Source of the DNA: Mucilaginibacter mali
Lineage (GTDB): Bacteria; Bacteroidota; Bacteroidia; Sphingobacteriales; Sphingobacteriaceae
Length of the DNA: 64,000 nt
Reading direction: 5' to 3'
NCBI RefSeq assembly: GCF_013283875.1
Contig: NZ_CP054139.1
Span: 3,906,001-3,970,000, forward strand
Each line of letters opens with the position of its first letter. Position 1 is the first letter of the stretch. The notes below the pieces were generated by a model. It worked only from the letters and a program-made list of their open reading frames with translations. It ran no database searches and was not told where the DNA came from. Shown here in pieces: positions 28,585 through 52,438 of the stretch. The translations under genes were made by a program, and so were the position numbers.

Positions 28585-28679
28585 TTGTCATTGCGAGCGA
28601 TAGCGCGGCAACCCCATAGGACCTGCAATCAGGACCTGCCTATGGGATTGCCGCGTCGCTACGCTCCTCGCAATGACAA
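28585..28679. repeat. TTGTCATTGCGAGCG long palindrome, full copy
   Basis: Arms ttgtcattgcgagcgatagc and gctacgctcctcgcaatgac with a second inner pair (ccccatagg / cctatggga). The best complete example of the family, also seen at 50444-50536 and as halves elsewhere. Confidence 0.85.
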
Positions 28680-28782
28680 GGAAGCGATAAAAAAGACTAC
28701 AAACTTTATCAACATTGTATTTTTGTGGATAAACCCTCGCACAATTTTTGCATTTTTGCCCAATTAAACCAGCGAGACAAAC

Positions 28783-30075
28783 ATGGGGCGATACTATATT
28801 ATCGATTTCGACAGTACATTTACACAGGTTGAGGCTTTGGATGAACTGGCCCGCATATCGTTAAAAAGCCACCCCGACCGCGAAAAGATCTATCAGCAGA
28901 TCGAGGACTACACCAATGCCAGCATGGAGGGCCGCCTTTCGTTTGCCGAAAGTCTTGCCGCCCGTGTACGATTACTGGAAGCCAACCGCGACCACCTGAA
29001 GCAACTGGTTACACACCTCAAGAAAAAGGTATCTACCTCTTTTTCGCGCAACAGCGTCTTCTTTAAAAACCATGCCGATGAGGTACTCATCGTATCCGGC
29101 GGGTTTAAAGAATTCATCATCCCGGTTGTTGCCGAATACCATATCAAAAAGGAAAACATCTATGCCAATACTTTCGAGTTTGACGAGGAGGGCAAGATCA
29201 TCGGTTACGATAAAAGTAACCCTCTATCGCAGGAGGGCGGCAAGGTAAAGCTACTTCGCGAGATGAACCTGCAAGGTGATATTTTTGGCATTGGCGATGG
29301 CTACTCTGATTTTCAATTAAAGGAATCGGGCCTGATCAAAAAGTTCTTCGCTTACACCGAAAATATCGAGCGTAAATCGGTGGTTGAAAAGGCCGACCAT
29401 ATCACGCCAAGCTTTGATGAATTTTTGTACATCAACAAGTTACCACGAGCTATCTCTTATCCTAAAAACCGCATCAAATGTTTAGTGGTAGGCAATATTG
29501 ATGAAGAAGCGCTGGTGCAGATGCGCAAAGAAGGCTACAACATCCGCCATAAAGAGCAGATAGAGGATAAATATTTGCAGGAAGCCGGTGTACTGTTTTG
29601 CGATGAGGCCAACCAGCCCACGCCCGAACAGGTGGAAGCTGCCGGTCGCTTAAAGGTTATCGGTTGCTTTGGTAAAGTGCAAAGCCGTAAACTGGCCGAT
29701 ACAGCCTGCGCGGCTGGCGTCATCATTTTCGACGACCCGAAGAGTAACCCACGCAATACCGACTTTATCCCTAAGCGCGTTATCGCCTTTATGAACGAGG
29801 GTAAAACGCATACCAGCTGCAACTTTCCCGATCTGCAGCCGCCACGTGTAAGCAATGCCCACCGGCTTATCCATATCCACAAGAACGTACCTGGCATCCT
29901 GGCTAAAATAAACGAGGTGTTCGCCCGCCACAACATCAACATCGTTGGCGAGTTTTTGGTGACCAACCCGCAAATTGGTTATGTAATTACCGATGTAAAT
30001 ACCGGTTACGATACCCAGGTGCTGGAGGAATTAAAAGCTATTGAGCAGACCATTAAGTTTAGGTTGCTGTATTAG
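28783..30075 (+). CDS. HAD phosphoserine-phosphatase-like protein fused to ACT domain; SerA core deleted
   Basis: 430 residues. Residues 1-225 are a SerB-like HAD-IB phosphatase with all motifs intact: DFDST (Asp8, Asp10), LIVSGG (Ser105), GGK (Lys154), GDGYSD (171-176). Residues about 231-325 resemble the substrate-binding half of D-3-phosphoglycerate dehydrogenase. Residues 358-430 are an ACT domain (RLIHIHKNVPGILAK). In the Bacteroidota family I know, roughly 630 residues, a NAD-binding Rossmann domain lies between the last two. Here it is absent and the flanks are joined in frame (NPRNTDFIPKRVIAFMNEG). It is probably a phosphatase, possibly serine-sensing, not a dehydrogenase. A TATTTTTG box lies at 28718. 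Confidence 0.85.
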   Translation: MGRYYIIDFDSTFTQVEALDELARISLKSHPDREKIYQQIEDYTNASMEGRLSFAESLAARVRLLEANRDHLKQLVTHLKKKVSTSFSRNSVFFKNHADEVLIVSGGFKEFIIPVVAEYHIKKENIYANTFEFDEEGKIIGYDKSNPLSQEGGKVKLLREMNLQGDIFGIGDGYSDFQLKESGLIKKFFAYTENIERKSVVEKADHITPSFDEFLYINKLPRAISYPKNRIKCLVVGNIDEEALVQMRKEGYNIRHKEQIEDKYLQEAGVLFCDEANQPTPEQVEAAGRLKVIGCFGKVQSRKLADTACAAGVIIFDDPKSNPRNTDFIPKRVIAFMNEGKTHTSCNFPDLQPPRVSNAHRLIHIHKNVPGILAKINEVFARHNINIVGEFLVTNPQIGYVITDVNTGYDTQVLEELKAIEQTIKFRLLY

Positions 30076-51877: not shown

Positions 51878-52438
51878 ATGAGTGTCAAGTATAAATTCAG
51901 AGACCAGGAGAAACTATACTTTATCAGTTTTGCCGTAGTGAACTGGATAGATCTTTTTATACGAAACGATTATAAAGATATCATGCTCAACTCGTGGAAA
52001 TATTGCCAAACCCACAAAGGGTTTGAAATATATGGCTGGTGTATCATGACCAGCCATGTACATATGATTATAGGCAGTAATGGCGCAAAGCTGGAAGATA
52101 TTATGCGCGATATGAAAAAGCATACTTCGATAGCGCTGAAAGCCGCTATACAAAATCATCCTGGCGAAAGCCGCAGAGAATGGATGTTATGGATGATGGA
52201 AAGAGCGGGCAGAAAGAACAGCCAGAATATAAATTTCCAGCTTTGGCAACAAGATAATCACCCGATAGAAATATATGATTTCAGGATATTGCATCAAAAG
52301 CTGGATTATATACATAACAATCCGGTAGTGGCAGGCATTGTTGACAAACCACAGGATTATTTATATAGCAGCGCGCGCGATTATTATGGTTTACCAGGTA
52401 TGGTCGATATAATTTTAGTTGATCCATTGGTGGCATAA
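51878..52438 (+). CDS. RAYT: REP-associated tyrosine transposase (Y1/IS200-like)
   Basis: 186 residues. Single-domain Y1 transposase with the HUH motif in MTSHVHMIIG (residues about 57-62) and the candidate catalytic Tyr in LDYIHNNPVVAG, followed by YLYSSARDYYG. These are the RAYT hallmarks, distinguishing it from IS200 proteins by the Tyr-I-H-N-N-P-V box. Three REP units lie upstream and one inverted unit begins at the stop codon, which is the arrangement expected of a RAYT and its own REPs. It is likely the enzyme that spread this REP family. Confidence 0.93.
   Translation: MSVKYKFRDQEKLYFISFAVVNWIDLFIRNDYKDIMLNSWKYCQTHKGFEIYGWCIMTSHVHMIIGSNGAKLEDIMRDMKKHTSIALKAAIQNHPGESRREWMLWMMERAGRKNSQNINFQLWQQDNHPIEIYDFRILHQKLDYIHNNPVVAGIVDKPQDYLYSSARDYYGLPGMVDIILVDPLVA

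Follow-up and report, generated by a model that had tools for sequence, protein, structure and literature searches.

A SerB-like phosphatase joined to a PGDH-type substrate domain and an ACT domain, without a dehydrogenase core, in Mucilaginibacter mali and nearly all Sphingobacteriaceae

The 430-amino-acid protein encoded at positions 28783..30075 (+) of the window, that is, of the whole 64,000-nucleotide stretch of Mucilaginibacter mali DNA that was analyzed, consists of a HAD domain, a phosphoglycerate dehydrogenase (PGDH) substrate domain and an ACT domain, as was detected from the open reading frame and domain profiles, and has no dehydrogenase core (hereafter, the short form). With a probability of roughly two in three, we regard it as the SerB of the organism, derived from a SerB-SerA-ACT fusion whose core would have been inactivated and then deleted, with a separate type III SerA serving step 1 of serine synthesis and serine feedback acting on step 3. 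The reading frame starts with ATG and comprises 430 codons with no internal stop; the protein finds one match only in its own 6.04-Mb, one-contig genome.

The N-terminal domain (residues 1-222; 28783..29448, all coordinates within the gene being on the + strand) was recognized as a SerB-like HAD-IB phosphatase by profile searches, with 36.4 bits against a cut-off of 27 for the Pfam HAD model (residues 7-179) and 60.4 bits against a cut-off of 45 for the HAD-IB model TIGR01488, and by its structural match to human phosphoserine phosphatase (PSP; 6q6j). The four catalytic motifs DxDxT, SGG, Lys and GDGxxD, reported as intact in a preliminary description of this DNA, are indeed all there: motif I is DFDST (28804..28818) with the nucleophile Asp8 and the acid/base Asp10, motif II is SGG (29095..29103) with Ser105, motif III is Lys154 (29242..29244), and motif IV is GDGYSD (29293..29310) with Asp172 and Asp176. 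Asp8, Asp10, Thr12, Glu17, Phe54, Arg61, Ser105, Lys154, Asp172, Gly173 and Asp176 are invariant in 40/40 aligned short forms, and Met48 and Gly106 are each kept in 39/40, with Ile and Ala, respectively, in the remaining row. Glu17 and Arg61 align, under a conversion between PSP numberings that we take to be correct, to a Glu and an Arg of PSP. According to the excerpted text of PMC6321591, these two residues hold the serine moiety of the substrate.

The SerB equivalog model TIGR00338 gave 62.1 bits, below its curated cut-off of 144.15 bits, for which reason the protein is named SerB-like and not filed under this family; as the cut-off was likewise reached by none of the matches from 30 related genomes (0/30), phosphoserine specificity is not proved by the family models. 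The best NCBIfam match is phosphoglycerate dehydrogenase, also below the cut-off, and short proteins of this kind can be misnamed. No second SerB was found in the genome, the other TIGR00338 matches (n = 3) reaching only 21-22 bits and covering the C-terminal part of the model inside frames of 685-703 amino acids. The HAD domain of the same protein family, fused or split, is the top SerB-like hit in 29/30 chosen genomes; in the exception, G550, a better-scoring match (101.7 bits) lies elsewhere. In Table 1 of the GapMind paper (PMC7311316, in excerpt), a Pedobacter strain shows a gap for DapE but none for SerB, so that a candidate for SerB may have been accepted in this strain.

It is quite unlikely that the HAD domain acts on another small phosphomonoester, with serine or another amino acid in control, since the putative serine-moiety residues are invariant, no other SerB-like gene was found, and the parent of the short form (see below) carries PGDH, intact in 24/31 copies, together with a serine-type ACT domain. 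Besides the low TIGR00338 score, this alternative draws on a structural match, the GPDH of Dunaliella salina (6iuy), in which a SerB-like HAD is also fused to a dehydrogenase and presumably acts on glycerol-3-phosphate; there the dehydrogenase is of another kind, as judged by the title of the entry, and is still present, and no ACT domain was seen. Moreover, annotated phosphoserine phosphatases were proposed to be histidinol-phosphate phosphatases in four bacteria (PMC5764234, in excerpt).

Downstream of the HAD domain, E. coli PGDH (1yba) aligns in two pieces, its residues 4-112 to residues 224-326 and its residues 310-410 to residues 331-430 of the M. mali protein, with no residues left between both pieces for the Rossmann part. 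The claim of the preliminary description that the NAD-binding domain is missing and its flanks are joined in frame without a stop was thus borne out. Alignments and the structural model place the N-terminal part of the substrate-binding domain at residues 227-325 (29461..29757) and its C-terminal part with the hinge at residues 327-357 (29761..29853). The junction falls at residues 321-328 (29743..29766), where the Rossmann core, about 190-195 residues in the long form, is absent, and pairwise alignments to long forms break at residue 326/327. Neither the GxGxxG motif nor the catalytic Arg/Glu/His set is present, as described earlier, and the loss goes beyond the deleted core: Asp274/Glu275 (29602-29607, +) stand in place of E. 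coli Arg60/Ser61 by alignment, Arg240 and His292 are deleted, and Glu269 is absent too, Ser61 and Glu269 being, as we assume, active-site residues of PGDH. The numbering of the catalytic Arg60, Arg240 and His292 is that given in the excerpted text of PMC6300728. At the Arg60/Ser61 positions, the short forms vary among Asp/Glu, Thr/Asp, Ala/Asp, Gly/His and others.

The AlphaFold2 model (40 sequences, mean pLDDT 88.4, pTM 0.72), a monomer prediction, superposes at residues 227-430 on residues 7-410 of E. coli PGDH (2p9e_B) over 202 residues at 1.7 Å (Z 26.1), and six PGDH entries give 200-202 residues at 1.7-2.0 Å. Residues 1-226 superpose on human PSP 6q6j over 204 residues at 2.6 Å (VIA Z 21.0). 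The HAD-IB fold is likewise shared with human PSP 6hyj/1nnl (201 residues at 2.4 Å for 6hyj) and the phosphoserine phosphohydrolase-like protein 3kd3 of Francisella (209 residues at 3.0 Å), both of which have no PGDH-type tail. Foldseek lists PSPs and PGDHs, the PGDH alignments being poor (TMq 0.23-0.43). The substrate-binding and ACT domains are thus predicted to be arranged as in PGDH, but without the nucleotide domain, and together show the type II PGDH layout of a substrate-domain fold followed by a C-terminal ACT; the model may echo remembered PGDH geometry. Model confidence is lowest at residues 221-230 (mean pLDDT 61), which makes the placement of the HAD domain relative to the rest unsure. 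The substrate domain, previously called a remnant, has lost its active-site residues but is nearly complete in the model and not a scrap. This near completeness and the median dN/dS of 0.03 of the domain would agree with continued binding of 3-phosphoglycerate, phosphohydroxypyruvate or 2-oxoglutarate, by which the phosphatase would integrate two signals; nevertheless, with the Arg60/Ser61 equivalents lost and variable and the other half of the active site deleted, we judge such binding very unlikely.

E. coli type II PGDH (SerA) is the classic serine-inhibited enzyme, and it shares with the M. mali protein the substrate domain, the ACT domain and the His/Asn/Asn serine site, whereas the latter has no nucleotide-binding domain and no Arg240, His292 or Arg60, and bears a HAD phosphatase in front. 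The ACT domain (residues 358-430; 29854..30072) matches PF22629 with 49.7 bits against a cut-off of 27 (residues 362-425) and was correctly described before as intact. His366, Asn368 and Asn386 correspond in the alignment to E. coli His344, Asn346 and Asn364, the last of which we take to be the third serine-site residue; these three and the loop Gly371 are conserved in 40/40 aligned short forms, which would place the domain among the serine-type ACTs, and the three are kept wherever a row with a lost core includes an ACT domain. Not every ACT domain is regulatory. Substitution of His344/Asn346 of E. coli SerA by Ala abolishes the inhibition by serine (PMC9612172, in excerpt), and three aligned serine-site positions are named in the available part of PMC6300728.

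Mean pairwise identity among the short forms, with the copy L185 (see below) set aside, is 76.2% for the HAD domain and 66.5% for the ACT domain; within the substrate domain it is 51.2% in the N-terminal part and 59.2% in the C-terminal part with the hinge. The mean dN/dS amounts to 0.013 for the HAD domain, 0.031 for the substrate domain and 0.018 for the ACT domain over 20 pairs (19 distinct, two being of the same two genomes) with dS of 0.22-1.48, the whole-gene dS having been applied to every domain. As judged from these ratios, all three domains alike are under purifying selection. The protein could be SerB with a tail that is merely structural, serving folding or dimerization after loss of serine sensing, as the substrate domain diverges faster than the HAD domain (51.2% vs 76.2% identity). 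The mycobacterial SerB2 (ACT-ACT-PSP) provides a further argument for such a tail: the phosphatase domain of the M. tuberculosis enzyme alone shows a drop in efficiency of ~10^5 that the addition of ACT domains restores in part (PMC4270767, in excerpt), so that ACT can be needed for activity itself. However, His366, Asn368 and Asn386 are invariant (40/40), which a dimerization module would not obviously need, and we therefore consider a purely structural tail unlikely. SerB2, which likewise unites a PSP-type HAD with an ACT sensor, is inhibited by L-serine according to partial texts of PMC4270767 and PMC10564941 and would by analogy be a precedent for serine control of our protein, if this control holds; it has two N-terminal ACT domains, whereas the M. 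mali protein has one C-terminal, PGDH-type ACT on a substrate domain and would have come by another evolutionary route.

The short form is nearly family-wide. In the genus, 34/36 genomes match, both misses being 58% and 61% complete; in the family, 290/301 genomes match (own genome included), covering 22/25 genera, with a single match in 289 of the 290 and two in G304. Among the matches listed, to which the exact spans refer, every family row extends to residue 430 uninterrupted by a stop, and none is a long form. Nine of the 11 family genomes without a match belong to three genera with small genomes (1.3-2.4 Mb). The best 80 of 557 named relatives, a ranking by a short-form query that favours short forms, are all short (428-458 amino acids, parsed from the nearest Met or the frame start) and come mostly from Pedobacter, Sphingobacterium, Parapedobacter and Mucilaginibacter. 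The supposition that the core had been lost specially in comparison with Pedobacter and Sphingobacterium consequently falls, both genera carrying the short form among these 80; at the family level, where nearly every member has it, the short form is the normal one, which the preliminary description had named as evidence against itself. The family-wide matches rule out that the loss is limited to this genome or its genus.

An assembly gap, a sequencing error or a decaying pseudogene can be rejected with a practically negligible residual probability. The frame is open in a one-contig genome, the in-frame form is conserved across the genus and 22/25 genera of the family, which also excludes the sequencing gap considered earlier as a possible cause, and dN/dS is low (0.013-0.031). 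Nothing specific speaks for an artefact; one relative, the one-contig genome G371 of f14, has a broken frame in its short HAD-ACT gene (L098), but frame breaks also affect its serC and its stand-alone serA, a pattern that looks like sequencing indels.

In a class-wide draw, 99/395 genomes matched at 1e-20. Outside the family, many matches came in two pieces, 1-326 and 326-430, within frames of ~600-690 amino acids, which on their sequences are evidently the expected HAD-SerA-ACT fusion and the parent of the short form; the ~630-residue family, invoked in the preliminary description, is thus real in other families of Bacteroidia, and the origin of the short form by core loss from it is supported. 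The fusion has the same domain order, with ~38-52% identity over residues 1-326 and ~44-62% over 326-430, but mostly keeps an intact dehydrogenase, all nine PGDH positions checked being retained in 24/31 aligned long forms, whereas the 430-amino-acid protein is without the Rossmann core and Arg60/Ser61. The seven long forms without the full set comprise five of family f11 and a single one each of f42 and f25; the f25 row misses Arg60 and Arg240 only and was still counted as a loss. L115, with an intact core, differs at two checked HAD positions. In f11 (64 genomes searched, 18 matched), the core is decayed, not deleted: Arg60, Arg240 and His292 are lost in 16/16 full-length copies, and GxGxxG is kept in 15/16. 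In four genomes of one genus of f12 (L100, L101, L114 and L124), a HAD gene (231-233 amino acids) is followed by a separate neighbouring gene of a type II SerA-ACT protein, the SerA frame of L114 having just 287 amino acids; as the split HADs nest among the fused forms in a tree that includes them, the two genes probably arose by fission of the fusion. A second short group without the core, f14, includes an intact copy (G049), the broken frame of G371 and pieces on two contigs (G407), and a MAG titled Polaribacter has a lone short copy without the core (L185).

The phylogenetic tree was built from 313 HAD + ACT columns of 56 rows, with the dehydrogenase left out, as were stand-alone SerA, two N-terminal and two C-terminal pieces of f14 and the split HADs. 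On the best tree, five switches between an intact and a lost core are required, four of them forced by well-supported branches for the intact group; the losses of f25, f42 and L185 are one row each, and the checked HAD and ACT site residues are kept in each lost-core row, L185 being covered by the 40 aligned short forms. The short forms of Sphingobacteriaceae make up one group of 23 rows (support 99/95) with copies of Chitinophaga and Niabella inside. These copies (Niabella L174 and L184, Chitinophaga L188 and L197) are short HAD-ACT genes nested within nodes of 22 rows including Niabella (98/95) and 12 rows including Chitinophaga (96/92). Such nesting suggests horizontal transfer of the short form to Chitinophagaceae, which for Niabella depends on a single deeper row (L192). 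The L185 copy clusters with long forms of f54 (100/99), beside one with an intact core, and is, if the MAG is sound, a clear separate deletion. The f14 short forms fall elsewhere on the tree on a long branch. An AU test disfavours the placement of all short forms in a single clade (p 0.016, on a tree from which stand-alone SerA and two N-terminal pieces of f14 were excluded), the length of the f14 branch being borne in mind. The decayed f11 forms are sister to the family short forms with modest support (58/61; 81/89 with other rows), as if inactivation had preceded excision. By these sequence comparisons, the core loss is old, nearly family-wide and, on the tree, repeated in other lineages.

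The genome contains five full 2-hydroxyacid dehydrogenase C domains, one of which belongs to the separate SerA whose search had been proposed: a protein of 317 amino acids without ACT, encoded 81 bases behind serC (SerC: 465.6 bits for TIGR01364 against a cut-off of 443.6). By its sequence, this SerA is of type III, which in the classification of PMC6300728 (in excerpt) denotes ACT-less enzymes not regulated by serine. A stand-alone SerA occurs in 13/14 lost-core genomes (8 short and 6 decayed) against 7/16 intact-core ones (14 long and 2 split; Fisher p 0.0067, kinship ignored), the 30 genomes having been picked by hand, not at random, from those matched. The line for a stand-alone SerA, at least 44% identity to the 317-amino-acid protein, was set after viewing the list; the next value below, 40%, is itself a long fusion, and a stand-alone frame of G050 at 37% was not counted. 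In G371, SerA and serC are each in two pieces, and SerA was counted as present. In G671, with a decayed core, neither stand-alone SerA nor SerC was found in the genome, which may reflect another route to serine or an assembly gap; in all other examined genomes with a lost core (13/14), a second SerA accompanied the loss of the fused dehydrogenase.

With the only SerB-like gene found and the separate SerC/SerA pair, a serine-regulated phosphatase in serine synthesis, as proposed in the preliminary description, is still the best reading. Weighing against it are the TIGR00338 score below cut-off, the genome G671 and the lack of adjoining serine genes. In this pathway, type III SerA and SerC would make phosphoserine, which the HAD domain would hydrolyze via a phospho-Asp8 intermediate. 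Two subunits would associate through their ACT domains, with L-serine bound at the interface between these as in E. coli PGDH, and the retained substrate-binding domain would be an arm relaying the change in ACT to the HAD domain, thereby slowing the phosphatase. Feedback would then act on the last step, SerB (step 3), rather than on SerA (step 1), the core having presumably been inactivated first and excised afterwards. More tentatively, and with somewhat less than even odds, we propose that domain excision moves allosteric control along a pathway: in the fusion, the sensor would at first have governed the first and the last step alike; where a further SerA, of type III and unregulated, was present, the fused dehydrogenase would have been free to decay or be excised, and the sensor on its substrate-domain relay would be left governing the last step. 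This would have happened about five times in the sampled Bacteroidia, become fixed in nearly all Sphingobacteriaceae and been passed to Chitinophaga and Niabella.

If true, this would explain the control of serine synthesis in a large Bacteroidota family whose SerC-linked SerA has no ACT. The graded series of intact, decayed and deleted cores with repeated losses constitutes a natural experiment on a regulatory domain switching its enzyme, and it also bears on the possible use of a dead substrate domain as an allosteric relay. Among the papers listed from the open-licence literature, outside which most subscription papers lie, no paper on the HAD-SerA-ACT fusion or the core-less form was found, nor any experiment on the 430-amino-acid protein; new here are the recurrence of the loss, its graded series and its tie to a second SerA.

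No recognizable serine genes adjoin the gene in the window or at the loci of its relatives, and a promoter and terminator scan gave chance-level results only. In flanks of up to 6 kb around the gene in the 80 named relatives (the best of 557), none of the eight neighbours from the window recurs, a LytTR regulator with two matches of ~32% identity aside. In 61/80 parsed loci, the commonest neighbours, named by eye, are presumably NAD-epimerase-like (47), formiminoglutamase-like (44) and IlvE-like aminotransferase (34) proteins, none of them serine-specific. Directly upstream of the gene lies a long inverted repeat (window 28585-28680), TCATTGCGAG ... CTCGCAATGA, which folds far better than its shuffles (z -9.19) and contains a 10-mer with 7 copies in the window against 0.13 expected; by sequence it is a member of a REP-like element family. 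A small ORF at 51878-52438 of the window (186 amino acids, HVHMI motif) resembles, as we presume, a REP-associated tyrosine transposase and is possibly tied to these repeats.
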